This document shows, piece by piece, positions 24,320 through 52,920 of a stretch of DNA of 64,000 nucleotides (positions within the stretch are counted from its first letter, which is position 1; every line of letters begins with the position of its first letter). The notes below the pieces were generated by a model, which saw only the letters and a list, made by a program, of their open reading frames with translations, searched no databases and had not been told where the DNA came from. This DNA is from Hippopus hippopus (Eukaryota; Mollusca; Bivalvia; Cardiida; Cardiidae): the NCBI GenBank assembly GCA_946811185.2, contig OX328109.1, positions 4,774,001 to 4,838,000 on the forward strand, in the 5' to 3' direction. A program made the position numbers and the translations under genes.

Positions 24320-24340
24320 TTTATAATATTTAAATATTTT

Positions 24341-25123: not shown

Positions 25124-25162
25124 TTTTATTTAAATACTTTTATTTTTTATATATAAAATAAG

Positions 25163-25318
25163 ATGTATTGCGTTAAATGTAAAAAACATACTGATACGAG
25201 TGATATAAAATATTCTGTTTCTAAAAATGGAAGAAATATGATGCAGGGGAAATGTGTTATTTGTGGAATAACTAAAACTCAGTTTATAAAAAAAAAACCG
25301 TCGGGAGTAGTATATTAA
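25163..25318 (+). CDS. Zinc-ribbon N-terminal part of the PLA2 protein, Polinton A
   Basis: 51 residues starting MYCVKCKKHT, with CVKC and CVICG pairs forming a zinc ribbon (the DUF5679-type motif common in Polinton and giant-virus proteins). In Polinton B this module is continuous with the phospholipase. Here the frames part at a run of ten A (25288-25297), where a -1 shift would join them. Either a one-base indel, a sequencing error or slippage separates the two parts. Confidence 0.65.
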   Translation: MYCVKCKKHTDTSDIKYSVSKNGRNMMQGKCVICGITKTQFIKKKPSGVVY

Positions 25319-25347
25319 ACAAATTTATAAATAATTTACCCGTTGAA

Positions 25348-25656
25348 ATGCATCTACCAGGGCACAACTTTACGGGGCCAGGTACCAAACTAAATAAAAG
25401 ACTCAATCCAGATTTAACACCGAAGGAATGGAGTAAACCTATAAACCGTGTTGATAAAGCCGCTTATAATCATGATGTTTGCTATCTTCAACACAATGAT
25501 ACTGCTACAAGAAACGCAGTGTGTGATAAGAATATGTTAACGGAGTTAGAAGGTATTTACAATCCTAGTATTAGAGAAAAAATGGAAAGAGGTTTGGTAA
25601 GTAGACTCATTGGAACGAAAATGAAATTTGGAATGGGAGTAAAAAAAAAAATTTAG
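25348..25656 (+). CDS. Parvovirus-type phospholipase A2, Polinton A
   Basis: 102 residues from the internal ATG. Calcium-loop motif FTGPGTKL near residue 9 and catalytic NHDVCY near 43, followed by a Cys/Arg helix, are those of the secreted-type PLA2 of parvovirus VP1 and of adintoviruses, used to breach endosomal membranes during entry. Its frame continues upstream to about 25297 with similarity to Polinton B. The end, at a run of eleven A, reads GVKKKI and stops, and the integrase continues in the -1 frame. Catalytic His and Asp are present. Confidence 0.8.
   Translation: MHLPGHNFTGPGTKLNKRLNPDLTPKEWSKPINRVDKAAYNHDVCYLQHNDTATRNAVCDKNMLTELEGIYNPSIREKMERGLVSRLIGTKMKFGMGVKKKI
25641..25651 (+). 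promoter_or_regulatory. Poly-A slippery site between PLA2 and integrase
   Basis: Eleven A residues directly before the PLA2 stop. The integrase follows in the -1 frame and lacks any ATG upstream of its first catalytic Asp. In Polinton B an eight-A run sits in the same place, with an ATGA overlap. It may be a programmed -1 frameshift or transcriptional slippage site. Confidence 0.4.
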
Positions 25657-26549
25657 CGGAAGAATTACATAAACCCGTAAAAAGAAATTTTAAGAAAAGG
25701 AAAGTTAGAGTAAACGGTATAGATAGGATATGGGCTGCGGATTTAGTAGACATGCAAGCATTTTCTAAGTTTAATCGTGGTGTTAAATACCTTCTCGCTG
25801 TCATTGATATCTTTTCTAAATATGGATATCTGATACCATTAAAAGACAAAACAGGAAAATCTGTTGCTATAGCATTAAAAAGTATTTTTAAGGAGAGAAA
25901 ACCTGAAAAAATGTGGGTGGATAAGGGCAAAGAGTTTTATAACAAAGATGTAAAAGACTTGGTTGAATTATATTCTACCGAAAATGAGGAAAAATCAAGT
26001 GTGGTTGAGAGATGGATTAGAACAATGAAAGAAAAAATGTGGAAGTATTTCTCCGCTAACTCTACAAACGTTTACATTAATGTGCTACCGGATTTAGTTA
26101 AAAAATATAATAACACGAGGCATTCATCTATTAAGATGACTCCGGTAGACGCTAGTAAAAAAGAAAATGAAACGAGAGTTTGGAGAAATCTTTACCCTGA
26201 TAATCTTGAAATAAGAGACTCTAATCCTAAGTTTTCCGTTGGAGACAAAGTAAGGATAACTAAAAAGAAAAAGACTTTTGAAAAAGGTTATACAACAAGA
26301 TGGACTGAGGAGGTTTTTACAGTTTCTGAAGTAAAACTTACATCACCTATAACATATAAAATTAAAGATTTTAATGGGGAAGAAATACAAGGTACCTTTT
26401 ATGAACCTGAACTGCAGAAAACCAGTCAAGAGTTGTATAGGATAGAAAAGGTTATTAAAAAAGGAAAAAAGAAATCTCTTGTAAAGTGGAAAGGTTATCC
26501 TGATGAATTTAATTCGTGGGTTGACAATAAAGATATTAGAAATATTTAA
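25653..26549 (+). CDS. INT: Retroviral-type integrase with chromodomain, Polinton A
   Basis: About 298 residues. Core starts with LAEELHKPV and GIDRIWAADLVDM (first catalytic Asp), then WVDKGKEF (second Asp) and the third acidic residue in KSSVVERWIRTMKEKM (DDE/RVE core). An SH3-like part (FSVGDKVRITKKKKTFEKGY) and a C-terminal chromodomain (VKWKGYPDEFNSWVDN) follow. It inserts the element into host DNA, giving 6-bp duplications. The only in-frame ATG (25752) lies after the first catalytic Asp, so translation must begin further upstream at a non-ATG codon or arrive by frameshift from PLA2. No internal stop, unlike the Polinton B copy. Confidence 0.88.
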   Translation, partial: LAEELHKPVKRNFKKRKVRVNGIDRIWAADLVDMQAFSKFNRGVKYLLAVIDIFSKYGYLIPLKDKTGKSVAIALKSIFKERKPEKMWVDKGKEFYNKDVKDLVELYSTENEEKSSVVERWIRTMKEKMWKYFSANSTNVYINVLPDLVKKYNNTRHSSIKMTPVDASKKENETRVWRNLYPDNLEIRDSNPKFSVGDKVRITKKKKTFEKGYTTRWTEEVFTVSEVKLTSPITYKIKDFNGEEIQGTFYEPELQKTSQELYRIEKVIKKGKKKSLVKWKGYPDEFNSWVDNKDIRNI

Positions 26550-26559
26550 CTATAAAAAA

Positions 26560-26976
26560 ATGTCAAATATTTCGATTGAAAACGTAATTTTACCGAATAA
26601 ACCGTTGAACAATTTCGAATTAGAGGGTGCCGTTAAAAGATTAAAGATTCCTTATTTTAGAGGAGTGTTTTTACTAGACTCACTACCGAGAAAACCGAGT
26701 AAAACAGAATGTGGTATAGTAAACTTTGATAAAAGTGATGGGCCTGGTACACATTGGGTCGCTTGGTATAAAAATGGTAAAACTAAAATTTATTTTGATA
26801 GTTATGGTATACAACCACCTATTGAAATTCGAGATTATTTAAAAAGTCCAATACAGTACAATACTGACCAATTACAACAAGCTGGGCAAGTATTTTGCGG
26901 TCATTTATGTTTGTACATTCTAAAAGAGTTATCTAGAGGTAACCAGCTCCAAAATGTTTTAAATAAACTTTTTTAG
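26560..26976 (+). CDS. PRO: Adenain-like cysteine protease, Polinton A
   Basis: 138 residues from the ATG at 26560, preceded directly by TATAAAAAA. His in GPGTHWVAW, an acidic residue in IYFDSYG and Cys in QVFCGHLCLYIL form the His-Asp/Glu-Cys triad of the adenovirus protease family (C5), with the conserved Gln upstream. It matures virion proteins. Size is right for Polintons. The copy in Polinton B (48663-49062) is broken by a 17-bp deletion. Confidence 0.9.
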   Translation: MSNISIENVILPNKPLNNFELEGAVKRLKIPYFRGVFLLDSLPRKPSKTECGIVNFDKSDGPGTHWVAWYKNGKTKIYFDSYGIQPPIEIRDYLKSPIQYNTDQLQQAGQVFCGHLCLYILKELSRGNQLQNVLNKLF

Positions 26977-26988
26977 TGCTATATAAAA

Positions 26989-28203
26989 ATGCCTGTTGAC
27001 AAATTCGGAAGAATGAAAGATGATGGTGAAACAAGCAGTGATGGTGTGTCACTCGCTTACATAAATAATAATTTTTTACGCAAAGATGGAACAACTGTTG
27101 TTACTGGGTCTATAAACATGAATGGCAATACATTAACGAGGGTTAGTAATCCAATAAATTCTCATGATGTTGCAACTAAGGATTATGTTGACGCCAACTC
27201 AGGGTTGTTGAATGAAAACGGTGGATACCACTTTACTGGATATTTAAATATGGGTTTTAATCCGATAAGAAATGTTAAGGACCCAAAAGAACCGGGTGAA
27301 GCTGCTACTAAAAATTATGTGGATAATGTTGATAGAGCCTTTGTTTATAAAGACGGGAGGTGGTATGAGGCAGATGATGCAATCTCAATGGGAGGACGAG
27401 TAATTAACAATCTCGGAACCCCCACGAGACACGACCAAGCCTCTAATAAGTTTTACGTGGATACCACCATTGAGGCAGCTACCGCGGGTGAAAAAGCTTT
27501 AACGAGAAAACAAGATGGGTCCTATTCAATAGATGGTGGAATAGATATGAATGGTAACCAGATTACTGGATTATCAAGCCCCATATCACAAGATGCGGTT
27601 ACCACTAAAGGTTATGTTGATGACCTCGTTAAAAATATTAGAGGTGGTCAAGGTGCTATGTATAAATCTTTCTCAATGAAAGCGGATGGAGAACTATCAG
27701 TAAAACAAAATATTGATATGAATAATTTAAGAATATATAATATAGCGGACCCAAGAGAACAAACAGATGCTGTCACTAGAGAATATATGGAGCGTTTCTT
27801 CAGTGCATATAAACCAAAACCTACTATAACCGTGTGGGCCGAAGAACAGGGACCAATTTCAAACGGTAATTACGAGTTTTCATTCGGTAATGGTAATTCA
27901 GGTAAAAGACACGGTTTAGGGGGTTACTGTATGAGTGCATCAGGTAGAATTATAAGAGGAAGTTTAACGATCGTTAAAAGGGATCGTAATGCACCAGAAG
28001 AGGTAAAAATTAATATAACGGTAAACGGAAATGAACAGGTTGATTACACTATTATTAAAAAAGCGGACGAAACTTGTAGCTGTACGATTTTTCCAAGGGC
28101 GTTGGAGGTAAATCAATGCGACATAATAAACTTTATTTCGAGAACAGATAACCGAGATGTAACACACGCTTACATATCTATTTTGATAGAATTGGACTTG
28201 TAA
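26989..28203 (+). CDS. Repeat-built fibre-like protein, Polinton A
   Basis: 404 residues. Five repeats of the phage tail-fibre type follow the pattern MNGNxIxNLxxP...DxVTKxYVD (for example MNGNTLTRVSNP then HDVATKDYVD; MNGNQITGLSSP then DAVTTKGYVD), near residues 40, 85, 130, 190 and 250. The conserved C-terminal head (about 280-404) holds EFSFGNGNSGKRHG and ends ISILIELDL. Such repeats form trimeric fibrous stalks, so this is likely the receptor-binding spike of the virion. The Polinton B version has only three repeats but the same N-terminus and head. TATATAAAA precedes the ATG. Confidence 0.7.
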   Translation: MPVDKFGRMKDDGETSSDGVSLAYINNNFLRKDGTTVVTGSINMNGNTLTRVSNPINSHDVATKDYVDANSGLLNENGGYHFTGYLNMGFNPIRNVKDPKEPGEAATKNYVDNVDRAFVYKDGRWYEADDAISMGGRVINNLGTPTRHDQASNKFYVDTTIEAATAGEKALTRKQDGSYSIDGGIDMNGNQITGLSSPISQDAVTTKGYVDDLVKNIRGGQGAMYKSFSMKADGELSVKQNIDMNNLRIYNIADPREQTDAVTREYMERFFSAYKPKPTITVWAEEQGPISNGNYEFSFGNGNSGKRHGLGGYCMSASGRIIRGSLTIVKRDRNAPEEVKINITVNGNEQVDYTIIKKADETCSCTIFPRALEVNQCDIINFISRTDNRDVTHAYISILIELDL

Positions 28204-28262
28204 ATATATATAATATATTATAAAAAAATATATTATATATTTATTTAGTCATTTTAAATATT

Positions 28263-29030
28263 TTACAAAATTCTTTTAATATAAGATTCTGTTCTACATA
28301 TGAGACATATATTAGTTGTAAACTTATTACATTTTTCACAGATTGGTATATGACCACAATTACAATATAGTACGTTAGGTTTAACTTCATTACATATAAC
28401 GCAAGATTCTGAATAAAAAGTTTTTGAACCATTATTTAATTGGTTAGCGGTTCCTATATTATCTTCTTCATCTAAATCTTCATTATCTTCTTCGAAAGAA
28501 TACGCTTCAATACCCCATATATAATCATGAGAAAATCGTATCATAGGAGAAAGAATTGCTCCATCATAATGTATTACATCATGATCATACATTTCATCAT
28601 TATTACATAAATCATATATTTCTTCTTTATAAGTTGTTAAATATGTATCATTCCATGGTTCTATTTTTAACCAATATGGACCTCTCCTAGGTAGTGTTAT
28701 ATCACGACTACGATAAAAGAGACCTATCCACATAGTTGAATTATATATACCATGTTCATATATTTCTTTACTAAAATGATAATAAATTGCTGCTTTTACA
28801 TTAATTAAATTTTGCACATAATTATAGGAACAAAATTTTGGAAAAAATATTTTTCTTTTTGATTCATTATGAAAAGGTAATTCTTCATATTTATTCCTTA
28901 TATGATTTTTTAACTTCTTTAATTCTTCAGATGTAAATCTATTTAGCACTTCTATTTCATTAACTACCTCTTTAGGTTGCATTATATCAACTACATCATA
29001 AAAAACTTCATTTGTATGTAAGGCGCTCAT
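28263..29030 (-). CDS. RING-finger protein, Polinton A accessory
   Basis: 255 residues. The N-terminal 160 residues form an unrecognised conserved domain (YHFSKEIYEHGIYNSTMWIG, YWLKIEPWNDTYLTTYKEEI). An acidic linker is followed by a C-terminal C3HC4-type RING (CVICNEV, YCNCGHIPIC, CEKC, CLIC near 210-250) like that of IAP proteins. Possible ubiquitin ligase countering host defences. Paralogue of the next gene; Polinton B has a different gene at this position. Confidence 0.72.
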   Translation of the reverse strand: MSALHTNEVFYDVVDIMQPKEVVNEIEVLNRFTSEELKKLKNHIRNKYEELPFHNESKRKIFFPKFCSYNYVQNLINVKAAIYYHFSKEIYEHGIYNSTMWIGLFYRSRDITLPRRGPYWLKIEPWNDTYLTTYKEEIYDLCNNDEMYDHDVIHYDGAILSPMIRFSHDYIWGIEAYSFEEDNEDLDEEDNIGTANQLNNGSKTFYSESCVICNEVKPNVLYCNCGHIPICEKCNKFTTNICLICRTESYIKRIL

Positions 29031-29099
29031 ACTTATTTTTTATAATTTAAAATTTTAAAAATTCAAAAAAATTTTTCTTTTAACAAAAGATTATGTTCT

Positions 29100-29870
29100 T
29101 CATATGGGACATATATTTAAGCTAGACATTCCATCACATTTACCACATATACATAAATGTCTGCAACCAAATGCTATATTAGGTTTATCTTCTGAAAATA
29201 TTTTTTGTTTTTTTGGTTTTCTTCTAAATTCTTCTGGAGGCATCACAGGTTTAACTTGCATAGTTAACCAAATCAATTCATTAGTAAATTCTATAAATGG
29301 TGAGTAATTACGATTGTTTTCATCATATATACCTAAGCTACTTGGACTATAAGTTGCATTATTTTCATATAAATTTTCAATATCATGTTCATAATAAGAT
29401 AAATAATCCCTATCTTGAGAAATAATTTTAAGCCAATAAGTACCTTTCATATAATAAGATGGTTCAGTTCTATTATCCATAATACCAATTAACATTCTAG
29501 AGGTATAAGGTCCTTCATAAATTTTTTTACTAAAATGATAATAAATTACTTCTTTCGCATCAATTAAACCTAAATAATAATCATTAGGTGTTATATAAGG
29601 AAAATATACTTTATTACGTATATCATCATAAACAGGTTTTTGAGTAATATGTTTATTAATAATATGTGATTCTAAACAAACAATATAAAAACGACGCAAC
29701 AAACGTTGTTTATTTCTTAATGCTGTTCCTTTATATTTTTTAGAAAGTCTTTGGTCTTCTTTATCATACTCTTCACGAGTTAGCCATTTAGTAATAGTGT
29801 AATCATTTCCATCATCAATAATATAATCAGGTTTTTCTAATTCATGTAAAAATTTGCTTAACACACTCAT
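29100..29870 (-). CDS. Paralogue of the RING protein with degenerate RING
   Basis: 256 residues from the ATG at 29870. Shares with its neighbour the segments YHFSKKIYEGPYTSRMLIG and YWLKI...DYLSYYEHDIENL. The C-terminal ring is incomplete: the first CxxC pair is missing (DKPNIAF instead), leaving CRHLCICGKC and CPI before the stop. Tandem duplication followed by decay or specialisation of the ring. Last gene before the right terminal repeat. Function unknown. Confidence 0.65.
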   Translation of the reverse strand: MSVLSKFLHELEKPDYIIDDGNDYTITKWLTREEYDKEDQRLSKKYKGTALRNKQRLLRRFYIVCLESHIINKHITQKPVYDDIRNKVYFPYITPNDYYLGLIDAKEVIYYHFSKKIYEGPYTSRMLIGIMDNRTEPSYYMKGTYWLKIISQDRDYLSYYEHDIENLYENNATYSPSSLGIYDENNRNYSPFIEFTNELIWLTMQVKPVMPPEEFRRKPKKQKIFSEDKPNIAFGCRHLCICGKCDGMSSLNICPI

Positions 29871-29898
29871 CTTGAAATATTTATTAAGAAATCTATAT

Positions 29899-30262
29899 AA
29901 AAAATTCAAAAAAATTTTTTCACTTCTTTATTTTTGAATTTATGGTAAAATGGATATCTACCTTGGTTACACATATAATATATATACCACCCATTTATAT
30001 ATTATATGCAGCATTAACTAATAGACGCACACACCGTTACACACTGATTAAGTGATTAGTGCGGTTGTTGGTATGTTATTAAGTAAGTGATGGATGAAAT
30101 CTGGATGTTAAGAAATCAAAAAAAATTTTATCCATGAAACCGGTTATAAATTTTAGGGGTTAACCAAATTTTAAATTTTTTTTTCTGGGACATATATTCT
30201 TTTCCGGACAAATTATAGAAAAATAGCATTTTTGGCTCGGGAGGTGTATTTTTCAATCTACT
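29899..30262 (-). repeat. Right terminal inverted repeat of Polinton A
   Basis: Reverse complement of 13447-13810, ending CAATCTACT and followed by the GACGTC target duplication. Confidence 0.95.
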
Positions 30263-36242: not shown

Positions 36243-36583
36243 TACCTTATCAGAGAAAATTTCCAGCATTTGAACCACATTAAAATTGTCATCTTCGAAT
36301 GCTTTCAGTTTCGGACAAGTTTAAATTTATGTTGTGCAGGTAAAGAGTTACCTTATTGGACAGGTTAAGGATTAAAACAGGATTCAGATTTACTGTCGTA
36401 AATTTAAACTCTTTAACAGACGACAAAATTTTGGTCTCGTAAGTGAATAGTTATATCATTTTTTAACGAAAATTCCCTTATCTCTATCCCATATCCATAC
36501 ACCCACTCACCCACTCACCCACCCACACACACTTGCATTTATTTTCCATTTTGATTTCTTTGTTTGTTTGTTAGTAGATATAA

Positions 36584-37294
36584 AGTGAGAGAGCTGGGAC
36601 AGAACCCGGAAGTAAATTATCCCCCTCTTCCACTCAACCACAAAAACCCTCTCCCCTCAACCCGCCTAACCCTGGTCCCCTCAACCTGCCTAACCCTTGC
36701 CTAACCCTGGTCACCTCAACCACTCTCCACCCCGAACTCTCTGGCCCCTCCCACCTGCCTAACTCTGGACAACTCAACCACTAACTCTCTGGCCCCCTCC
36801 ACCCGCCTAACTCTGGACAAGTCAAGCACAAAACTCTCCCCCCATTAGGCTGGTCCCCTCCACCCGCCTAACCCCGGACAAGTCAAGCATAAAAAATAGA
36901 CTGGCCCCTCCCACCTGCCTAACTCTGGACAAGTCGAGCATAAACTCTCTGGTCCCCGCCACCCGCCTAACTCTGGTCAACTCGAGCACAAAACCCCCCT
37001 CCGTTAGAGTGGCCTCCCTCCACCGGCCTAACTCTGGTCTAAGCCAAGCGTAGAACTCTCCCCGCGCCTTAAGGTAAAAAAATGCATTAATGTCGTGAGA
37101 GGAACGCAAATATAAATGGTCGGAGTTGAGCGTAAAACTACCCTCGGTCCCCTGTCTCGCCCGAGGTCGGGGGCCGTGACTCGCAAGGTCAAATGGGGGT
37201 AAAGGTCAAACGGTGCATCGACCCCAGACGAGCAGACTCGACAAGCTCGAAGGCGAGTCAGCGATCGAGCAACCCGGCCTGACGACGAGTCACC
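36584..37294 (+). repeat. Left terminal inverted repeat of Polinton B
   Basis: 711 bp matching the reverse complement of 52186-52896. About 36630-37060 is a minisatellite of about 45-50-bp units (GCCTAACTCTGGACAAGTC with a GGTCCCCTCCACCC part). The inner 200 bp are GC-rich with repeated CGAG/CTCG. The 95-codon open frame here is repeat-encoded. Confidence 0.93.
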
Positions 37295-37306
37295 GACCCC
37301 AGACGC

Positions 37307-40300
37307 TCACTTTTGCTTTATCTTAGTATGCCCCCATGCTAACGTATCGATATTATTTTCGAGGATATGGTGTTTATCATCATCCCCGCTTAATGCGATT
37401 TTATTAACTACTTCAGTATACAACCCATGCTTATGACTCCTAATAACTACCATATTCCTTAATTGCGTCTTCTTTTCGAACAAACACTCTTTGTAATGTT
37501 CGTGCTTGATAAACGCCTTTACTACCTGCTTTGAAATTCCCTTGCATTTCTTATTCTCTTCACCCCCGCACATTTTATAGGAGTATAGTTTAGACCTGAG
37601 ACCCACGAACTCCTCGGAATTGTTCATGAGTTTGAAGAAGTCCTTTTCAAACGCCGTTTTAGCTTTCGTTCTCAGGTTAGTATTTTTATCGATATAAGGT
37701 TTTAACCATTCGCTCTCATCAAAAGTTAACCCTCTGTGAATCTTTTTAAGCTTTATACCCAAACTTAAATACAACTTTAAGTTTTCTCGATGTAATATGT
37801 AATTCTTTTTATGGTACAAATTAGGTATAAGTTTTTCGACTTTGACTCGCCCCGGCTCGTCCGGGATGCCTGCCTTTAATCTTTCGGGAGCTATAGGTAA
37901 ATCATTGTGTAAATCGTGTAATTCTTCGGGATATTCTAAGTCGACCTCTACTATACAGGGCTGGTCTCGCCAATTTCCTGGATTATCCATCCATTTGAAA
38001 TTACCGGTAGGAAGTTTTTGAGACATTGCCCAGCCATAAAGATTGTTCGCGTCTAAGTAAGTAATAAATCTCGAGGGTTTATTCGGGTCGTATTTCCCAC
38101 CCATATAACTATTATTCGCTGTCGCGTATCGTTTTAAAATGGTAGAGATACCTCCTCTTATTCCGTTTTCGATAAATAAAACCATATCTGGGTCGGATAA
38201 TAGTTCTAATTTTACCTCAGTAGTTTTTAACATCGCATCCCAAGCTAATCCCGGCGCCGTATAAAACCAAGATGGGTCCAGTCCGTAATTCTCGAAGCAA
38301 ACGTTCCTGAAGTTCTCGAAAACATCGGCTAGCAGTAAAACGTCAACCTTGTTATATAGGTCATGGTAATCCTTAAAAGTTTCCATCTCGAATGTCTTCC
38401 ATACATTTAACGCGTGTTGGTAATCTTCCTTATCAATTCCACTACATTTAAGCTTCGAGTAGAACTTCCTTTGTTTAGGTAGCTTCGTTTCTTCGAGTCT
38501 GCTATGGCTATCGAACCATTCGTACGGGAATATGCCTTTTTGAGAGACCATTTCAAGCTTTTTCCCCTCGAAGTATTTTGAGAGAGTAACCTTCTCCTTC
38601 TCGGATAGAGACCTGGCGAGTTCGTCTAAACTTCTAGCTAGGAACTTAAAACTATCGAGGAATCTAATCTCATGCGTTTTAGTCTTCTCTATAAATTGGT
38701 TCTCTTTTTTATCAAATACGTAGTAATCTATCGGTATCCTTTTAGACAGGCTTATATACGTTTCCATGTTTGTTGGTATACAACTCGTATCACCCTTTGT
38801 AGTCATTAAATCTTTTATAAATAAATGAGCATCATACCTACTAAGATTATGAAAGAATACGGGCGTAAAAGTAGGTTTTCCACATTTCAAATTGCACGTA
38901 TTGTGCGCGGCTCCCCTAAACTTTCAGGTGAAATGACAATGGTCTTTTACTTTTCCATCTGAATCCGTAAATGGTTTATTACATATCCAGCAATTTTCTG
39001 CTCTATCAAACTTCCTTTTATCCCTAGCCCTAAAAATTATTTCCCTCATTGGTATCTTACTTATTGCTTTTATAACCTCTTCTAATTCATTTACGAATTC
39101 CTCAGCCGCATTTTCGCCGGAATATTGGAAAACATCAGATGGGTAGACATCTTCGTAAAGCGATTTAAGGTAGAAACAGTACCCTGAGATTTTATGAGCG
39201 TGAATAACCTTCGTACTATTCCCCCTCTTTTCATATCGCCTTTCTAACGTAGCCTCCATATCTGCGTAAATTGTGAAAGGATGTCTCTGCTGTTTATGAA
39301 AATTCTCAAAAGATATTGTGGTACCCTCTTCAGGCAAGTCTATTCTACAGGCATCTTTTTTCTCGCAATACTCTAAATGTTTCTTTAAAGTTTTTTCTTC
39401 TTTGAAATGATTTAAACATCTTTGGCAAATATAAGTTTGACCGTTATGATTGGATATTTGTTTAGATAGCAATTTACTCAAGTCTTTAATCAAGCAATAA
39501 TGTTTGATGACTGTCTCGCTCATGACACCGTAAGGAGTCAGCGGCTCCTCCAGGTAGCCGACCTTCTCGAGAAGTAAAAGATTAATATGATGGTCTCTTT
39601 TATAAGTTTCCTTACTTATACTAAGTGGGTAAACACCGGTGTGATTATATCCGAAAATTGATACCGATATCGAAGGATTTTGTCTCTCAAATTTAATTCT
39701 ATCGGTAAGGGAAACGGGGTAGTTAATTCCTTCCATATTTATAGTGCTTAACAAAGGTTTTAGTCTAGCAATTCTTTCAGGGTGTTCACTAGTTGGGTTT
39801 AAAGCTATAAGAATACAATACGCAAAGCACATATCATCCTCCTTATTTATCGGGTTAATAACGCTTTTTGTTTTCGCTATGTTAGGAGGAGTTGGAAACC
39901 AGGAATTAGCTCTTAATGGATTAAACGCTGCTGTGTATAATCTTAAATCGATTACGAAAACGACTCTCCAATAATCTGTTTCCATTTCTTTGGCAGCTAT
40001 AGCTTCTAATATAGCTTCCGCCATTACATCATATATTTCATTCTCGTCTTCCCCTTCTAAGTTAGTGATTGGATGACCGGAATGGAAATTCATCTCTTTT
40101 AACTCTCGGGTAATAGAGTGTTTCATCATGTAATTCATGATGAGTTTAACTTTTGTCTGTCGGTTATTTCTAATAATACTGGTTACTTTACCTTTCGCTA
40201 GATCAAGGAACTGAGCTGGAGAATATTCTCCTTTACCTTCTATAAGATATTCTTTCGCGAATCCCTTTAGTGCGGATGATCTTTCTATAATCTCTATTTC

Positions 40301-40780
40301 ATCTTTATCCTTATATAACTGGTCTATTTTTATTTGTAAAGCTTTTATCCTAGGCGATATATTTATCGGAATTTCTTTAATGCTATCTAAATACTTTATC
40401 AACTCGTCAACTGAGGTTTTGACGCCCCCAGGCGGGGGACCTCGCGTCGAGGGTTTTGGGGGCGTGTAAGGTGTTGGTTGTAATACCTTGGCTTGAAAAT
40501 TGCCGATATTATAGTCTAATAATGACGCTCTCCGATTAAGTAAGAGATCGATTAATTCGCTTCTTTTGAGCCTAGAGTATCCTCTGATTCCACTAGACTT
40601 AGCTTCCTTTTTTAAGTCTTCTACTGTGGATCCTCGGAATTGATCGGTTAGACTAATAGGCGGGGGTTTACCTAGACGCGCGATTAATTCGGCTCTTTTA
40701 AGCCTAGAGAATCCTCTGATTCCTCTAGATCTTGCTAAATTTTTTAAACCTCTTACGGTATATATATTATAATTGATCAT
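37307..40780 (-). pseudogene. PolB: Broken family B DNA polymerase, Polinton B
   Basis: Two open segments (38924-40780 and 37307-38890) separated by a nonsense codon (TGA) at the end of DHCHFT in the endonuclease-VII-like finger. The N-terminus carries two SAP/HeH-like modules (VRGLKNLARSRGIRGFSRLK and VEDLKKEAKSSGIRGYSRLK) that Polinton A lacks in PolB. Exonuclease motifs (YADMEA, HNLSRYDAHLF) and motif A (YLDANNLYGWAMS) are present. About 155 residues after KLMNNS are missing in frame, removing the rest of motif B and all of motif C (DTDS), so it cannot polymerise DNA. In the shared parts it is only about 60% identical to Polinton A. Confidence 0.92.
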
Positions 40781-41341: not shown

Positions 41342-42628
41342 TTAATACACTACACTCATCTTATTTCCGTCAGACTGGAAGTTAATTAACCTATCGCTAA
41401 TAATAACGGCATATGCCTCTGTGTTCGCGGGCACATTTTCGGTAAAACTCGCTTTGATTTGGATATCAGTGACGGAGTATTTTAATCTCTCACTCTGTTT
41501 GGAAACGTCAAACAAAAACAGGGGATAAAGGGCTTTATAATCTGAGGGAGTAATGTTGGGGTTTGACACCATTTCGTTCATGTTATAAAACTTGGATCTA
41601 AATAGAGAAGCGTCACCATACACTCTACTAAATTGGTTCGCAACGAATGAAAGATTATAATCAACGGCGGGATATCTAGTAGAATTTAAGGTAACATAAA
41701 TATTTTTAACGTTACTATGGTCAAATATAGCGGGATTTTGCTCTTGATCGCCGCTTTTACCAGTCTGAAAGGCAACAATGATAAAACGCGGCACTTCGGG
41801 AGATGATTTGACGGAAAGTCTCCAGGTGAATGATGTTGACTGAGGAACTGCGATAGAGTCGCACTGCCTCATTCTATATCCGACCGGTATTTTTTCTTTT
41901 TTCTCTATGATTTTATAGAGTTGCATCTTCTCTTCATCCGCGGGTAGCACGTGCGGCATATACCAAGATATTCTAAGTAAATTAATTCTACCATCAGCGG
42001 GAGCGGCATTATCTCGAAAGACCGCATCATTATCATTATTTCTAGTTAATGTGAGAGTTTGCTTCATTCCGTACAATATCTTATTGTAATCGTCACAAAA
42101 ACCGAATATATGTTTTAATGGAACTCTGAAGCTAAAGGTACCTCTTGGAAGAGGATTATTAATAATATAATTTCTTCTTACGACGAAACCCGTGTTTCCA
42201 GCACCCGCGTTAGCCGTTGTATCTTTATACCAGCATTGATTTAACCCTTGTGATTTAGAGAAATCATCCGGATATTTTAACAAACCGAGCATCGTAGTAG
42301 CATGGCCAGGATTCAATACGGACTCAATCTCCGTGCCCGAAAGTTGATACTTAATATTTTTAAAAAGATACATGAGACCATTGTTTGTTAGAGAAATACC
42401 GGTGTTAGCATCGTAAACTGCTCCAGTATCGCTTCTTACTAACTCACCTACAATAAGTAAATAACTCTCACTAGGATGAGTAAAAATATCTTGGGTCTCG
42501 ATGTTAATCCTAATATCTCCTCCAGAGTTGTTGAGGTGTGTACCTGTGATTGGCTCATACTCATGGTGTTCATACTCATCAATGCTATCGTCTCTCAAAA
42601 TCGGTTCGGTGATTTTTAAAATTTCCAT
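41342..42628 (-). CDS. MCP: Major capsid protein, Polinton B
   Basis: 428 residues, the same length as the Polinton A copy with no gap and about 31 substitutions, while many codons differ silently: a sign of purifying selection on the protein. Motifs GGDIRINIETQDIF and PLFLFDVSKQSERLKYSVTD are retained. TATTATAAA directly precedes the ATG at 42628. The gene before it differs from Polinton A: the 118-aa gene is missing. Confidence 0.88.
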   Translation of the reverse strand: MEILKITEPILRDDSIDEYEHHEYEPITGTHLNNSGGDIRINIETQDIFTHPSESYLLIVGELVRSDTGAVYDANTGISLTNNGLMYLFKNIKYQLSGTEIESVLNPGHATTMLGLLKYPDDFSKSQGLNQCWYKDTTANAGAGNTGFVVRRNYIINNPLPRGTFSFRVPLKHIFGFCDDYNKILYGMKQTLTLTRNNDNDAVFRDNAAPADGRINLLRISWYMPHVLPADEEKMQLYKIIEKKEKIPVGYRMRQCDSIAVPQSTSFTWRLSVKSSPEVPRFIIVAFQTGKSGDQEQNPAIFDHSNVKNIYVTLNSTRYPAVDYNLSFVANQFSRVYGDASLFRSKFYNMNEMVSNPNITPSDYKALYPLFLFDVSKQSERLKYSVTDIQIKASFTENVPANTEAYAVIISDRLINFQSDGNKMSVVY

Positions 42629-45940: not shown

Positions 45941-47635
45941 ATGTCTGACTTTTTTGTATCCACTCACACTTTCATAGCATACACAAACTTAAACGACCTT
46001 GATTTAGGAGTAATCTTTGATGAAGTTGGCATAAATTCTTCTCTCATCCATACGCTATATAAAGAGAGAGAGAAAGGTTTTAAGAAAAGAAAGGTAAATA
46101 AAACGAGGCATTTATTAAACTGTATATCATTTACTTTTTCCGAAGGAGTTAACCTTAACCTTAAACTTTTTAGAAATGGGGTAATTCAGGTTACGGGTTG
46201 TAGGAACTTCGATGATTGTAAATCCGGTTTACTTTTATTTTGGAGCCTTAAATGTTGTCCCGAGTTCGATCATTTAGAGGCTCGTATAGTTTCGACAATG
46301 AGAAACGTTATTTTTAACTTAGGATTCCCAGTTGATAGAGAAAAGTTATTTCGCGTGATTAAAAATTCGAACGGTGTCGAGGTATCCTGCATTAATGAAA
46401 AGCATTATCGCGTAACTATAGACTCGATAGATGATATGCCGGTTTATAAAATTAGAATAGAAGACGAGGGATTAATAGAAGAACCGAGTATAACTTATAG
46501 CAAGTTTGCAATTAATAGAGCTAAGAAATATATTAGTATACTTATATTTACAACGGGGAAAGTCCTGTGTTCGGGTGTTCATGAGAAGTATCAAACTCGA
46601 GTTATAGAATGGTTATTAGATTTAGTAAAACGTGGTGATATAAAAGCGAAAGAAGCCAGCAATTTTTCGCTAAAAAAATATCTACTTCCGAGTTATCTTA
46701 AAGAGATCTCAGGCGAGTCAGACATGGACGGCATAAAAAAATTAAAATTAAGTAAGAAATCCTATGTAAAAATGAGGGGAGATATGAATTGTATCAAAAG
46801 TGGGGAATTTCGTAAAGAAGATCTTTCTATAGATTACCCGAATAAATATAAGAGCAGGGAGTATGAATTTGTTAAGATACCAGTAAAGTACAGATACTCT
46901 AATGGTAAAAGTGGTTCGTTGTTTATACGTACCCCCATTTTGTTTTCATACGGTGTTAATGCGTTTGATAAATTGGAAGGTAGCCCGCCCGATAAATCGA
47001 AGAAAAAAGGTAGCCCGCCCGATAAATCGAAGAAAAAAGGTTCGAAAGGTAGCTCGCCTGATCCCTCGGCCCCCGCCGATCCCTCGGGGCCGAAATCGGG
47101 AAAAAAAGGTCTAAAAGATTGCTCGTTACCTTTAATATGTTATAACGCTGGAAAACCTATGAAGAAGGAAAGAGCTTTTAAAGAAGATCTGGAAAAACTA
47201 ACGGATTTCTTCAAGGGGCGTTGTAAGGATGAAGAACTAAAAGGAGATAAGATTAGAAATTTAGGAGCAATTAATATTTTAAAATATAATGATAATGGAT
47301 CGGCTATGTTATACGCGAAACTTTACGAAAACGAAGAATCTCGGACCCTCTTTTACGATAAAGAGGGCAAGGAGGTAGACCCTCTTTCATATACGAGAAT
47401 AACTTGTAAGTTGTTTTGTATTTTAAAAGTAGAGGGAATATTTAAAAATAAAAGCGTTGAAACGATCCAGATTAAGGTTTGTTCGGTAAAGATAGTAGAA
47501 AAGGATGTGGAAATACCGAATACGAGGAAAAAGGAAATTGCACCTAATATTTTAGATGAAAGTCCGAGTGATGATGAGGAAGAGGATGATGAAGGTCCGA
47601 GTGATGATGATGAGGAAGAGGAGGATGATGAATAA
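45941..47635 (+). CDS. TBP-like plus SSB-like fusion protein, Polinton B
   Basis: 564 residues. The N-terminal half resembles a two-lobed TATA-binding protein of the giant-virus type: lobe 1 has KLFRNGVIQVTGCRNFDD (near 76) and lobe 2 has ISILIFTTGKVLCSGVHEKY (near 199), the classic strand pair of TBP repeats. From about 300 (FVKIPVKYRY, FIRTPILFSYGV, SLPLICYNAGK, MLYAKLYENEES, FYDKEGKEVDPLSY, then a KLFCILKVEGIFKNK strand pair) it follows the order of the single-stranded-DNA-binding protein of large eukaryotic DNA viruses. A GSPPDKSKKK repeat interrupts it, and it ends in an acidic DDDEEEEDDE tail typical of SSBs. Replaces the RING pair of Polinton A. Both assignments are by eye. Confidence 0.65.
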   Translation: MSDFFVSTHTFIAYTNLNDLDLGVIFDEVGINSSLIHTLYKEREKGFKKRKVNKTRHLLNCISFTFSEGVNLNLKLFRNGVIQVTGCRNFDDCKSGLLLFWSLKCCPEFDHLEARIVSTMRNVIFNLGFPVDREKLFRVIKNSNGVEVSCINEKHYRVTIDSIDDMPVYKIRIEDEGLIEEPSITYSKFAINRAKKYISILIFTTGKVLCSGVHEKYQTRVIEWLLDLVKRGDIKAKEASNFSLKKYLLPSYLKEISGESDMDGIKKLKLSKKSYVKMRGDMNCIKSGEFRKEDLSIDYPNKYKSREYEFVKIPVKYRYSNGKSGSLFIRTPILFSYGVNAFDKLEGSPPDKSKKKGSPPDKSKKKGSKGSSPDPSAPADPSGPKSGKKGLKDCSLPLICYNAGKPMKKERAFKEDLEKLTDFFKGRCKDEELKGDKIRNLGAINILKYNDNGSAMLYAKLYENEESRTLFYDKEGKEVDPLSYTRITCKLFCILKVEGIFKNKSVETIQIKVCSVKIVEKDVEIPNTRKKEIAPNILDESPSDDEEEDDEGPSDDDEEEEDDE

Positions 47636-47755
47636 AGTAGGGTCCCATCATCGGGTGACTCGCCCTCTCACTCGACGATCCCAGACGAGCCTCTAGCTCT
47701 AGGCGAGACAGACACCCAACGCGTGGAAAAATATAACTTGCTTGAAGTTATATTT
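47636..47755. other. Convergent GC-rich spacer of Polinton B
   Basis: Between the fusion gene and the convergent fibre gene. Contains repeated CTCG/GAGAC words (GGCGAGACAGACACCC near 47702) and a small hairpin TATAACTTG/CAAGTTATA (47732-47751) that could end both transcripts. Confidence 0.5.
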
Positions 47756-48655
47756 TTATAAATCTAATTCTATCAAGATAGATATATAAGCGTGTGCTAC
47801 ATTACGACTGTTTGACCTCGAGATAAAGTTTATGACGTCACCTCCTATCAGCTTTATTGGTGGTTTAAAAAAGTCACAACCCCAATCTTGGGTTGCTGGT
47901 TTGGAAATAGACTTATCAACATACTCTCTACCATGTACCATTATATTAACAAAAAGCTCTTCTCCAGGCAGTTTAGGATCCTCCTTTACGATTGCCATAC
48001 TTCCCCTTATGATTCTTCCATTCGCGCACATGCAATAACCGCCCTCCCCATGCTTTTTTCCAGAATTACCATTACCGAATGAAAATTCGAAATTACCGTT
48101 TCTAAGAGGTCCGTTTTCTTCTGCAAACACGGTTATAACAGGATGTATTTCTTTTATCTTTTTATCTAGGGTGGTATCTACGTAAAACTTACTAGCAGCC
48201 TGATCGAATGTCAAAGGGGGTCCGAGATTGTTAATTACCCGTCCAGCCATAGAGATTTCATCAACTGCCTGAAACCACCTTCCATCTCTATAAACGAAGG
48301 CTCGATTGAAGTTGTCAACATACCTCTTAGTAGCAACTTCACCAGGTTCTTTAGGTTCCTTAACATTTCGTATCTCGTTGAAACCCATATTTATAAATCC
48401 GAGTGCCTGATACCCCCCGTTTTCTTTTACCCACCCCCCACTCGAAGTTCCATCCACGTAATCCTTAGTCGCCACGTCGTGCGAATTTACCGGGTTACTA
48501 ACTCTCGTTAATGTATTACCATTCATGTCTATAGAACCAGTAACAGCGGTCGTTCCATCCACGCGTAAAAAGTTATTGTTCACGTAAGCGAGTGACACAC
48601 CATCACCGATTGTGCCGCTATCACCTTTCATTCTTCCGAATTTGTCAACGGGCAT
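47756..48655 (-). CDS. Repeat-built fibre-like protein, Polinton B
   Basis: 299 residues. Same first 75 residues and same C-terminal head (EFSFGNGNSGKKHG, end ISILIELDL) as 26989-28203, but only three stalk repeats (MNGNTLTRVSNP/HDVATKDYVD, MGFNEIRNVKEP/EVATKRYVD, MAGRVINNLGPP/QAASKFYVD). The stalk is about 100 residues shorter. Open frame, in inverted orientation relative to Polinton A. Confidence 0.7.
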   Translation of the reverse strand: MPVDKFGRMKGDSGTIGDGVSLAYVNNNFLRVDGTTAVTGSIDMNGNTLTRVSNPVNSHDVATKDYVDGTSSGGWVKENGGYQALGFINMGFNEIRNVKEPKEPGEVATKRYVDNFNRAFVYRDGRWFQAVDEISMAGRVINNLGPPLTFDQAASKFYVDTTLDKKIKEIHPVITVFAEENGPLRNGNFEFSFGNGNSGKKHGEGGYCMCANGRIIRGSMAIVKEDPKLPGEELFVNIMVHGREYVDKSISKPATQDWGCDFFKPPIKLIGGDVINFISRSNSRNVAHAYISILIELDL

Positions 48656-48662
48656 TTTAATA

Positions 48663-49062
48663 CTAAAATAGTTTATTTAAAACGTTTTGAAACGCCTTCC
48701 CACGGGATAACTCTTTTAGAATGTATAAGCATAAATGACCGCAAAATACTTGTCCTACTCCTTGGAATTGATCGGTATTGTACTGTATTGGGCTTCTTAA
48801 ATACTCTCGAATTTCAATGGGGGGTTGTACGCCGTAACTGTCGAAATAAATCTTAGTCTTACCGTTTTTATACCAAGCGACCCAATGTGTACCAGGCCCA
48901 CCGCTTTTATCGAAGTTTACTATACCGCATTCCTTTTTACTAGGTTTTCTCGGTAATGTATCTAAAATAAGGAATCTTTAATCTTTTCACCGCATCTTCC
49001 AATTCGAAATTGCTCAACGGTTTATTGGGTAAAATTACGTGGTCGATCGAAATATTTGCCAT
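48663..49062 (-). pseudogene. PRO: Adenain-like protease, frameshifted, Polinton B
   Basis: Alignable with 26560-26976 from MANISIDHVILPN to the end. A 17-bp deletion after KRLKIPYF (near 48970), bounded by a short AGA repeat, shifts the frame and leads to an early stop. The His and Cys motifs are still encoded downstream in the shifted frame. Loss of this protease would block virion maturation by this copy. Confidence 0.88.
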
Positions 49063-49064
49063 TT

Positions 49065-49964
49065 TTAGAACTGCTCGATATTCTTATTATCGACCCAAGA
49101 ATTAAACTCGTCGGAATAGCCTTTCCACTTTACAAGGGATTTATCTTTCTGTTTTTTAATAACCTTTTCTATCCTAAACGTCTCTTGGGTAGTTTTCTGA
49201 AGTTCGGGTTCATAAAATGCGCCTTCTATTTCTTCTCCATTAAGATCCTTAATACTATACGTTATAGGCGATGTATGTTTTACTTCGGAAACTATAAAAA
49301 CCTCTTCCGTCCATCTCGTTGTATAACCCTTCTCAAAGGTCCTTTTCTTTTTTGTTATCCTTACTCTATCTCCCACGGAAAACTTAGGCGCTTTTTCTTC
49401 ACCACTATGTGGGTAAAGGTTTCTCCAAACCGCAGTTTCATTCTCTTTCTTACTAGCCTCTACCGGCGTCATTTTAATAGAGGAATGGATAGTATTATTA
49501 TACTCCTTAACGAGATTTCGCAAGACATCGATGTAAACGATCGTAGAGTTGGCGGAGAAATACTTCCACATCTTCTCCTTCATCGTTCTAATCCATCGTT
49601 CAACGACGCTAGATTTCTCTTCGTTTTGTGTGGAATACAATTGAACCAACGCTTTTACGTCTTTGTTGTAGAACTCCCGACCTTTATCGACCCACAATTT
49701 CTCCAGCTTTCTTTCCTTAAAAATAGCTTTAAACGCTTCTGCCGTCACCTTGCCTGTCTTATTTTTCAACGGGACCAGCCACCCTTACTTCGAAAAGATG
49801 TCGATCACAGCGAGAAGATAATTATTGCCCCGATTATACTTAGAAAAAGCGCGCATGTCGACTAAATCCGCGGCCCATATACTATCGATACCGTTCACTA
49901 TAACCCTCCTCTTTTTAAATCTTCGTCTTACAGGTTTGTGCAATTCCTCCGCCAGAGTTGTCAT
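49065..49964 (-). pseudogene. INT: Integrase with nonsense codon, Polinton B
   Basis: Starts at an ATG that overlaps the PLA2 stop (ATGA) and runs MTTLAEELHKPV, GIDSIWAADLVDM. A TAA replaces a Tyr/Trp-region codon after DIFSK (near 49793), cutting the protein between the first and second catalytic Asp. The remaining 234 codons (49065-49769) keep WVDKGREF, KSSVVERWIRTM and the C-terminal chromodomain (VKWKGYSDEFNSWVDN). Fragment probably inactive. Confidence 0.88.
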
Positions 49965-50482
49965 TTTCGGGTTTTTTTTACGATCGAACGAGTTGGCGTT
50001 CCCATTCCGAACTGCATCTTCGTACCTATGAGTCTACTTACCAAACCCCGTTCCATCTTTTCTCTAATAGAAGGGTTGTAAATACCATCCAGTTCCGCCA
50101 ACATATTCTTGTCACACACCGCGTTTCTCGTGGCTGTGTCGTTGTGCTTAAGATAACAAACATCGTGGTTGTAATCAGCCTTATCGACGCGGTTGATTGG
50201 TTTGCTCCACTTCTTCGGCGTTAAATCTGGGTTGAGTCTTTTCTTTAGCTTAGTACCGGGTCCCGTGAAATTATGGCTGGGTAGATGCATTTTGAAAGGC
50301 ATGTTGTTTATGACTTTGTTTAGCAAGGATCCACCCGTTGGGGTCGATACAAATTGAGTTTTAGTTATCCCGCAAACCGCGCATTTCCCACGCTTCATAT
50401 TCCTGTTATTTCTACTAACCACGTAGCTTACATCTTTCGTATCGGTACGTCTCTTACACTTAACGCAGTACATCTTTTTCAT
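49961..50482 (-). CDS. Zinc-ribbon plus phospholipase A2 protein, Polinton B
   Basis: 173 residues in one frame. N-terminal zinc ribbon (CVKC, CAVCG), a 20-residue linker, then PLA2 with FTGPGTKL (near 76) and NHDVCY (near 112). This shows the full-length arrangement that is split at a poly-A run in Polinton A. Ends with a run of eight A twelve bases before its stop, and the integrase starts in the -1 frame over the stop. Likely virion entry lipase. A second possible ATG lies three codons in. Confidence 0.82.
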   Translation of the reverse strand: MKKMYCVKCKRRTDTKDVSYVVSRNNRNMKRGKCAVCGITKTQFVSTPTGGSLLNKVINNMPFKMHLPSHNFTGPGTKLKKRLNPDLTPKKWSKPINRVDKADYNHDVCYLKHNDTATRNAVCDKNMLAELDGIYNPSIREKMERGLVSRLIGTKMQFGMGTPTRSIVKKTRK

Positions 50483-50508
50483 ATAAAATAATAAAAGTTA
50501 AATAGAAA

Positions 50509-51285
50509 ATGGATATTATAAACTTGTCATGGAATGAAGTAGTATCAAAGAGATTTAATCACCCCCTTTTACCGAGAAGTATCAGAGGTTTAATTATAGG
50601 CAAATCGGGATGCGGTAAAACTACTTTATTGTTAAACCTTTTACTCAGACCGGGTTGGCTCGATTACAACGATTTGAGCGTTTTCGGAAAAAGCCTTTTT
50701 CAACCCGAATACCGAATACTAAAAAAGGCTTTTGAAGAAAAACTACCGAAAGAATGTATCTTTAAATTGTTTGACATGCGTGATGAGATACAAGAACAAA
50801 ACATTGTACCGACGGCTTTAGTCGAAGAATGGATTAAAACGATTAAAAATAAATCGGATATAGATTGCAACTTCTTCGAGAATGCGAGCGATGTGCCCGA
50901 TCCGAGAGAGTTAAACTTGGAAAATAAAAACCTGATCATCTTTGACGACCTGCTTTTAGAGAGGCAGAATAAATGCGAGTGTTATTACGTTCGAGGAAGG
51001 CATAGTAACGTCGACTGTTTTTACCTCTCACAAAATTACTTTAGACTACCGAGGCAAACCATCAGAGAGAACGTCAATTTTATCTGTCTCTTTTCGCAAG
51101 ACCTAAAAAACATTAACCATATTTATAACGATCATGTGGGTGACGATATGCCTAAGGACGAGTTCAGAAAATTCTGTCAAAAGGCGTGGGAAAAACCATT
51201 CGGCTTTGCCATCATTGACTTAACGAGTAAAAAGCACGACGGGAAGTATAGAAACGGTTTTGATAATTTCTATATACCGGTGTGA
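50509..51285 (+). CDS. ATP: FtsK/A32-type packaging ATPase, Polinton B
   Basis: 258 residues. Walker A GKSGCGKTT and Walker B NLIIFDDLLLE intact; LSQNYFRLPRQTIREN downstream. About 90% identical to 24341-25123, and the residue order is conserved to the end (NGFDNFYIPV). Divergent from the PLA2 gene by a 26-bp spacer. Orientation inverted relative to Polinton A. Confidence 0.92.
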   Translation: MDIINLSWNEVVSKRFNHPLLPRSIRGLIIGKSGCGKTTLLLNLLLRPGWLDYNDLSVFGKSLFQPEYRILKKAFEEKLPKECIFKLFDMRDEIQEQNIVPTALVEEWIKTIKNKSDIDCNFFENASDVPDPRELNLENKNLIIFDDLLLERQNKCECYYVRGRHSNVDCFYLSQNYFRLPRQTIRENVNFICLFSQDLKNINHIYNDHVGDDMPKDEFRKFCQKAWEKPFGFAIIDLTSKKHDGKYRNGFDNFYIPV

Positions 51286-51413
51286 CTGTCTCGCCAGCGG
51301 CTCGACGCGAGGTCGCCCTCTCACTCGACGACGCGGGGACGAGCCCAGCGAGTCAGCTCGTGAGTCGAGGCTCGTCAGGAATCGGTTTAAAGAATCTTTT
51401 CGCTTTTTAAAAG
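51286..51413. other. GC-rich spacer with CTGTCTCGCC word
   Basis: Contains TGACTGTCTCGCCAGCGG and many CTCG/CGAG steps, unlike the AT-rich spacers of Polinton A. No TATAAA motif directly before the minor capsid start at 51414, an exception to the general rule in these elements. Confidence 0.5.
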
Positions 51414-52190
51414 ATGGACATAGATCTTTTAAAAAAGATAGTAAAAAATACGGAACACAAAACGTCGCTTCAAATCATCGTAAGCGATAACAAAACGCGT
51501 TTTAGAACGAGGTTTAATCCTCCGATTCAGCTTGAAAAGGATAAAGTATACGAAATAGCTTTAGTAAACCTCGAAACTTACTACTCTTTTCCAAACATTG
51601 ACGAAACGAACAACACATTAGTTTATTCTCCGGACAATGGTGCCTCATGGATTAAAATAAAAATACCTGAAGGAAGTTATGATCTTGTTGACATTAATGA
51701 TACAATTCAGCAGGAAATGAGAAAAAAGGGTCATTATGATAGAGTTAATGAAGAGTATCCTATTAACCTTTCTGCAAACACTAATACCCTAAAGTCTGTT
51801 CTTACTCTAGAAGATGGATACCAAGTAGATTTCAATCAACCGGGATCCCTCGCTAAAGTATTAGGATTTACTCACGCTAAATACACGCGAGGATTTCACG
51901 AGTCGGAGAATGTAGTGAACATTCTTAGCATAAATAGTTTGCTCGTTAACATAGATATTATTTCAGGAAGTTACGTTAATGGTTCGACAAAAAACACTAT
52001 TTACTCTTTTTTCCCGGACGTTGCGCCAGGATATAAGATAATAGAGTCACCAGTTAATTTAGTATACTTACCAATAACATTAGATGAAATACATAACCTG
52101 GAGGTAAATATTACGGATCAAGATGGTAATTTACTAAATCTTAGAGGCGAAAATTTAACGATTAGGTTTCATATTAGAGAAGCGAGGTGA
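51414..52190 (+). CDS. mCP: Minor capsid (penton-like) protein, Polinton B
   Basis: 258 residues, about 93-95% identical to 23546-24319: RFNPPIQLEKDKVYEIALVN, LETYYSFPNI and the end LTIRFHIREAR all retained. The N-terminus differs slightly (MDIDLLKKIVKNTEHKTSLQ). Its stop codon is formed in the first bases of the right terminal repeat, so the gene abuts the element end, whereas in Polinton A it is internal. Confidence 0.85.
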   Translation: MDIDLLKKIVKNTEHKTSLQIIVSDNKTRFRTRFNPPIQLEKDKVYEIALVNLETYYSFPNIDETNNTLVYSPDNGASWIKIKIPEGSYDLVDINDTIQQEMRKKGHYDRVNEEYPINLSANTNTLKSVLTLEDGYQVDFNQPGSLAKVLGFTHAKYTRGFHESENVVNILSINSLLVNIDIISGSYVNGSTKNTIYSFFPDVAPGYKIIESPVNLVYLPITLDEIHNLEVNITDQDGNLLNLRGENLTIRFHIREAR

Positions 52191-52896
52191 CTCGTCGTCA
52201 GGCCGGGTCGCTCGATCGCTGACTCGCCTTCGAGCTTGTCGAGTCTGCTCGTCTGGGGTCGATGCACCGTTTGACCTTTACCCCCATTTGACCTTGCGAG
52301 TCACGGCCCCCGACCTCGGGCGAGACAGGGGACCGAGGGTAGTTTTACGCTCAACTCCGACCATTTATATTTGCGTTCCTCTCACGACATTAATGCATTT
52401 TTTTACCTTAAGGCGCGGGGAGAGTTCTACGCTTGGCTTAGACCAGAGTTAGGCCGGTGGAGGGAGGCCACTCTAACGGAGGGGGGTTTTGTGCTCGAGT
52501 TGACCAGAGTTAGGCGGGTGGCGGGGACCAGAGAGTTTATGCTCGACTTGTCCAGAGTTAGGCAGGTGGGAGGGGCCAGTCTATTTTTTATGCTTGACTT
52601 GTCCGGGGTTAGGCGGGTGGAGGGGACCAGCCTAATGGGGGGAGAGTTTTGTGCTTGACTTGTCCAGAGTTAGGCGGGTGGAGGGGGCCAGAGAGTTAGT
52701 GGTTGAGTTGTCCAGAGTTAGGCAGGTGGGAGGGGCCAGAGAGTTCGGGGTGGAGAGTGGTTGAGTTGACCAGGGTTAGGCAAGGGTTAGGCAGGTTGAG
52801 GGGACCAGGGTTAGGCGGGTTGAGGGGAGAGGGTTTTTGTGGTTGAGTGGAAGAGGGGGATAATTTACTTCCGGGTTCTGTCCCAGCTCTCTCACT
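52186..52896 (-). repeat. Right terminal inverted repeat of Polinton B
   Basis: Mirror of 36584-37294, including the same minisatellite. The stop codon of the minor capsid gene lies in its first bases. Confidence 0.93.
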
Positions 52897-52920
52897 TTAT
52901 AACTACTTTTGTTTGTTTTT

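Follow-up and report, generated by a model that had tools for sequence, protein, structure and literature searches.

A TBP-like domain fused to a gp2.5-type SSB in a Polinton of the bivalve Hippopus hippopus

Why would a virus-like element join a domain resembling TBP, which is a transcription factor, to a single-stranded DNA-binding protein (SSB)? This question is raised by one gene in a stretch of 64,000 nucleotides from Hippopus hippopus (assembly GCA_946811185.2, contig OX328109.1, positions 4,774,001 to 4,838,000), hereafter the window, in which a Polinton carries an open reading frame (ORF) that an earlier note had described as a TBP-like domain fused to an SSB of the large-DNA-virus type. 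The ORF and all the motifs named in that note are present in the translation, and its family matches exceed those expected by chance. The gene and its parts, all on the plus strand, are as follows.

45941..47635, plus strand: fused TBP-like/SSB gene (ATG start, 564 amino acids (aa), single open frame; DUF2738 and TBP Pfam matches)
45941..46705, plus strand: TBP-like half, residues 1-255 (Pfam TBP 23.9 bits, cut-off 22.9; profile comparison with shuffles)
46160..46231, plus strand: first TBP-type hairpin, residues 74-97 (hhalign score 33.6 against TBP hairpin and helix)
46529..46645, plus strand: second TBP-type hairpin and helix, residues 197-235 (hhalign score 34.7)
46772..47563, plus strand: gp2.5-type SSB half, residues 278-541 (DUF2738; structure model and fold searches)
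46976..47104, plus strand: insert within the SSB half, Lys/Pro/Gly-rich, residues 346-388 (most aligned copies lack it; predicted local distance difference test score (pLDDT) below 50 there)
47564..47632, plus strand: acidic C-terminal tail, residues 542-564 (from the translation; most standalone SSBs also carry acidic tails)

Sequence, predicted fold and closest relatives all support placing the C-terminal half with the SSBs of large DNA viruses. On the whole ORF, DUF2738 scored 48.9 bits (cut-off 23), and the predicted model and fold searches both gave an OB-type fold like that of gp2.5, a protein which also features an acidic C-terminal tail. Binding to single-stranded DNA (ssDNA), which we infer for the SSB half, has been shown for ranavirus homologues only (PMC8734342). 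A sequence search of the PDB with this half returned no SSB among its hits, and no match was obtained with the whole ORF and the C-terminal half as single queries against 5.8 billion proteins, with the ORF, the C-terminal half and alignment A1 against viral contigs, or in phage records; PHROGs, queried with the whole ORF, gave nothing convincing (best E=0.083). In alignments A1 and A2, the linker (residues 256-277) and the insert (residues 346-388), which have stretches rich in Gly/Arg/Pro, vary in length by whole codons and far more than the two domains.

The N-terminal half is, on sequence grounds, a TBP-like domain with a putative saddle fold. Pfam TBP scored 21.2 bits on the whole ORF, below the cut-off, and exceeded it on residues 1-255, for which it was the sole Pfam family at E<=10. 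Because residues 1-133 alone matched no Pfam family and residues 101-260 alone matched TBP at only E=0.037, the TBP signal needs both hairpins. When the TBP-like half was compared with PDB sequences, all 11 matches at E<=10 were TBPs (best E=0.037). An archaeal TBP profile was built by fetching 80 loci and using 78 ORFs of 150-290 aa, two shorter ones being dropped; residues 197-235 and 74-97 aligned separately to the same hairpin and helix of this profile, both with scores above the best of 200 column shuffles (23.5). The two-fold repeat of TBP, with a hairpin and helix in each repeat, is recovered by this separate alignment of both hairpins. After the addition of diverged standalone relatives, the best alignment placed residues 111-215 over TBP 6-72 (score 34.8) and the second placed residues 73-214 over TBP 56-162 (score 31.5), with 23.2 for the best of 150 shuffles and 16.0 for the SSB alignment used as a negative control. 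Pfam TBP was moreover found at E<=1 in 15 of 15 related N-terminal halves (best 1e-5), 14 of which are more than 84% identical to that of the window, or nearly so, and hence not independent. It was also found in all five further relatives, two of them over the cut-off (25.7 bits, and 30.2 bits in L183).

The fusion is real and is repeated across the host assembly (1.07 Gb), in which at least 120 stretches match the fused ORF, 77 of 479 candidates having been scored. Fifty loci were fetched, 30 by rank and 20 chosen by hand because both halves looked open; the frame is uninterrupted over both halves in 41 of them, and several copies carry stops. For DUF2738, 150 of 278 candidates were scored and all 150 passed the cut-off, so that the genome holds at least that many matches. 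Among the matches listed, the 18 in open frames of at least 480 aa are of the fused type; the other 132 are in shorter frames and include halves of disrupted fused copies. Thirty of these DUF2738 loci were taken with 1.5-kb flanks: 29 gave a strong SSB profile match and the last (L097) one at E=0.001. Since the fibre-like neighbour of the window element adjoins 29 of these 30 loci, the standalone SSBs too belong to Polintons and occupy the same slot; at 30 fused loci with flanks, this neighbour was found in all 30 and the neighbour on the other side in 22. A tree of 72 SSBs was calculated from 41 fused copies, 22 standalone ORFs of at least 180 aa out of those 30 loci (excluding three shorter ORFs) and nine metagenomic proteins, with long-branch warnings at P0001 and L074, outside the fused clade. 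As the 41 fused SSBs form one clade (100/100) nested within the standalone ones, a single fusion onto an older Polinton SSB probably gave rise to all of them.

The two halves differ in their apparent selection. Across every pairing of the 41 fused copies, the pooled ratio of nonsynonymous to synonymous polymorphism (pN/pS) was 0.41 for residues 1-255, 1.11 for residues 278-345, 0.74 for the insert and 0.96 for residues 389-541. Between more distant relatives, the ratio of nonsynonymous to synonymous substitution rates (dN/dS) ranged from 0.10 to 0.49 for TBP, where three of 15 pairs were saturated. For SSB, with three of 28 pairs saturated, it was 0.17-0.63, except in the single pair of fused copies, at 0.92. 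All these ratios include neutral changes that arose after insertion. By these ratios, the TBP half is constrained, as is the SSB half in the family at large.

The TBP-like domain also occurs in other settings. At L078, alone among the 30 flanked loci, it forms an ORF of its own (273 aa) that starts about 41 nt after a standalone SSB. With this ORF as query, 141 of 151 candidates were scored and 129 matches obtained. Taken together with the DUF2738 matches, they show an SSB directly upstream of a TBP-like ORF in six places (C9:60.90, C10:2.77, C5:64.60, C15:32.63, C18:23.17 and C9:32.08 Mb), some of these tandems carrying stops. At C2:67.16 Mb (L184, L183; G000:C2:67161700-67166400), the domain lies inside an open frame of 1455 aa, of which 1012 aa were read, in the order polymerase, acidic repeat linker, TBP-like domain; 503 aa of this frame are 59% identical to the polymerase of the sister element, which lies in the same window, and parts are 73-74% identical to that of the window element. 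A 456-aa frame at C10:43.66 Mb (L186; G000:C10:43662600-43664050) similarly consists of 78 aa of polymerase C-terminus, an acidic repeat linker and the TBP-like domain. Given the SSB fusion and these fusions to the polymerase C-terminus, the TBP-like domain has been joined to two replication proteins, hinting that it may help the element copy its DNA.

The ends of the element were then considered. The host Polinton, 16,335 bp long, is bounded by inverted repeats of 722 nt that are 100% identical, with TTTGTT on either side, as in a 6-bp target duplication, at an insertion site which is TTTG-rich.

36573..37294, plus strand: left terminal inverted repeat (TATAAAG at 36579-36585)
52186..52907, minus strand: right terminal inverted repeat (TATAAAG on the minus strand at 52901-52895)

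The sequence at both ends is AGTAG(A/T)TATAAAGTGAGAG, and in elements of the fused family TATAAAG starts at the seventh base of both ends. A 25-mer of the element end occurs 31 times in the genome and not at all in the backwards control; these occurrences form 15 pairs 16-18 kb apart plus one single end, and all 31 hold TATAAAG because the search pattern itself holds it. Fifteen of the 16 elements with this 25-mer hold a fused-type match among the matches listed; the exception, at C3:76.03 Mb, may reflect the limited extent of that list. The end of the sister element, which carries neither TBP nor SSB, is AGTAGATTGAAAAATAC. The idea that TATAAAG at the ends generally marks TBP carriers was considered and is weakened by the sequence at the expected end of the polymerase-TBP element, given below. 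Within the element, TATA(A/T)A occurs within 100 nt upstream of seven of 14 gene starts. As proof of a promoter role, these hexamers are weak, the host DNA being AT-rich.

On balance, it is probable, by a modest measure, that the fused protein is a replication accessory protein of the Polinton, combining a gp2.5-type SSB with a TBP-like module that holds the element's DNA. The C-terminal half would be the Polinton's own SSB, of the type known from T7 (gp2.5) and large DNA viruses, and would coat the strand displaced during protein-primed replication. The N-terminal half, a two-repeat TBP-like module presumably joined once to an older Polinton SSB, would most likely anchor the protein at AT-rich stretches of element DNA, whether termini, promoters or both. 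That the halves bind DNA, where they would do so and what the protein does are inferred from these comparisons. A more specific version, which we put forward tentatively, is that the TBP-like domain is a module for recognition of the terminus (origin), joined independently to the SSB and to the polymerase C-terminus, whose binding in the minor groove near the ends would bring the replication machinery to the origin.

Several observations weigh against this proposal. The single-sequence model of the N-terminal half has low confidence (mean pLDDT 36.4); support for this part of the earlier note comes from the two hairpins, whose scores exceed all shuffles, and the saddle stays putative. The hhalign probabilities against TBP were 29-52%, the profile of alignment A2 found one TBP in the PDB (E=0.2), the whole-ORF search of the PDB found no TBP and one relative (L179) gave no TBP hit. 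The likely end of the polymerase-TBP element is AGTAGATAGAAAAGG, and terminal TATAAAG is hence not universal. The polymerase of the window element is broken, its C-terminal piece being without about 153 residues present in the sister polymerase. Finally, the pooled pN/pS of the SSB half in the fused clade, 0.96-1.11 against 0.41 in the TBP half, suggests that this half may have lost constraint or be changing fast there.

The earlier note had instead proposed that the TBP-like half acts as a promoter factor on the element's promoters, with the SSB half linking transcription to templates under replication. TBP-like proteins are indeed known from large DNA viruses and mirusviruses (PMC5825884, PMC10132985), and the hexamers found upstream of half of the gene starts agree with such a role. 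However, the host DNA is AT-rich, and the polymerase fusion and SSB tandem favour replication; we hold this explanation with no more than tentative belief. Because of the polymerase fusion and the SSB/TBP-like tandem pairs, a replication setting appears at least as likely as transcription for the TBP-like domain, and has been put ahead of it here. It is unlikely that the fold serves contacts with proteins (e.g., polymerase or host TFIIB-like factors) rather than DNA binding. The clear alignment is limited to the hairpin and helix parts and the hairpins are 126 residues apart versus 91 in TBP, with about 35 extra residues between them, which speaks for such a role, but the motifs around the Phe, Gly and Val/Thr positions of the hairpins, which contact DNA in TBP, are kept in nearly all rows of alignment A2.

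A slightly smaller chance still is given to the N-terminal half being no TBP homologue, with two hairpins similar by chance or convergence. The weak whole-domain scores and the want of a confident model speak for this explanation, against which stand the absence of any other Pfam family from residues 1-255, the TBP matches in all five further relatives and the scores above every shuffle in both comparisons. The least probable of the readings is that the fused frame arose by degenerate read-through from one gene into another and is unused as one protein. In its favour are the stops in several copies, the broken polymerase of the element and the near-neutral change of the SSB half among fused copies. 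Against it, the frame is open in 41 of the 50 fetched loci (20 of the 50 having been picked for halves that both looked open), linker lengths change in whole codons and the TBP half is under constraint. The replication accessory protein remains our preferred reading.

The rest of the element has the gene set of a Polinton, namely a capsid protein, a packaging ATPase, an integrase (via the sister ORF) and a protein-primed DNA polymerase (incomplete); no protease was identified among the element's genes.

37307..40780, minus strand: protein-primed-type DNA polymerase, two ORFs (37307-38890, 38924-40780; C-terminal piece matches phrog_1907 DNA polymerase, E=4.6e-14)
41342..42628, minus strand: double-jelly-roll capsid protein (PF21738, E=1.6e-57)
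47756..48655, minus strand: fibre-like neighbour, convergent with the fused gene (homologues at the fused and DUF2738 loci as counted above)
49065..49769, minus strand: integrase-like ORF with chromodomain (Chromo over the cut-off; 82% identical to the sister ORF)
50509..51285, plus strand: packaging ATPase (Pox_A32, 36 bits, cut-off 22.8)

The integrase label rests on the sister ORF, whose rve match is below the cut-off. The stretch corresponding to the missing polymerase residues contains, in L184, FTDTDS, which we take to be polymerase motif C; since the polymerase is split in two ORFs and is without this stretch, the window copy is probably not self-sufficient. The N-terminal polymerase piece is 34% identical to that of the sister, as against 93% for the capsid proteins, and the element is therefore a mosaic. 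Between the two elements (23546-29909 versus 45941-52190), the ATPase/integrase/fibre block is inverted and the capsid block has the same orientation. Residues 486-535 of the sister polymerase ORF (14352-17927) form an endonuclease VII-like domain (Pfam E=1.1e-5; PHROGs E=3.6e-8). A 173-aa ORF at 49961-50482 combines two domains, DUF5679 (E=4.4e-13) and a phospholipase A2-like one (E=4.8e-7), and a 1329-aa ORF at 1113-5102, weakly similar to the L184 Polinton polymerase (25% over 289 aa), is perhaps part of a third element in the window.

The fused gene had also been said to replace the RING genes of the sister element. In that slot, the sister has one clear RING ORF (28263-29030, E=1e-7) and a second, weak one (29100-29909, E=0.029, below the cut-off), and neither half of the fused ORF matches any other ORF of the whole window at E<=1. 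The claim thus holds for the sister's slot, and strict replacement is rejected: RING and SSB lie side by side in three of the 30 flanked DUF2738 loci (L084, L095, L096), which therefore indicates a shared slot.

If the proposal is true, a TBP-like fold would have been recruited into DNA replication by a virus-like element, through fusions to an SSB and, separately, to a polymerase. The shared SSB type ties animal Polintons to large DNA viruses and bears on the source of the replication proteins of those viruses, and the known element ends make the idea directly testable with purified domains. A Polinton TBP-like/SSB protein was not found in searches of the literature on Polintons, viral TBPs, SSBs and fusions, of which the one on fusions was too wide to carry weight, most subscription journals being outside the coverage; the words TATA, TBP and SSB are absent from the main texts of PMC11071308, PMC10120064 and PMC12721341, and DUF2738 came up in one paper, on its expansion in Hydra (PMC7642931).

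Among known systems, the T7 gp2.5-like SSBs of large DNA viruses (DUF2738; ranavirus P31K/vSSB; African swine fever virus (ASFV) CP312R by fold) share with the window protein a Pfam family, a predicted OB-type fold and an acidic tail, whereas the latter sits in a Polinton, has a TBP-like domain in front and, in the window copy, contains a Lys/Pro/Gly-rich insert. An in silico study assigned ASFV B263R to TBP-like proteins by its features and names putative TBPs in further large viruses (PMC5825884), TBP is present in 59% of mirusvirus genomes (PMC10132985) and the TBP genes in the Cymbomonas study belong to mirusvirus-like elements (PMC10675990). The presumed likeness to the TBP-like proteins of ASFV and mirusviruses lies in two TBP-type hairpins, one at each repeat, aligned here to archaeal TBPs; in contrast to the TBP core, the N-terminal half is longer, has extra residues in its second repeat and is fused to an SSB or polymerase. 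In Hydra, the table of domain counts lists an expansion to 21 and 12 DUF2738 domains in two species (PMC7642931); the Pfam family is the same and is likewise present in many copies in an animal genome, known there from domain counts. In the Oxyrrhis Polinton-like virus, a helicase SF1-pPolB fusion (PMC12721341) likewise joins a replication protein of a small virus-like element to another domain, the partner being a helicase there and a TBP-like domain here.
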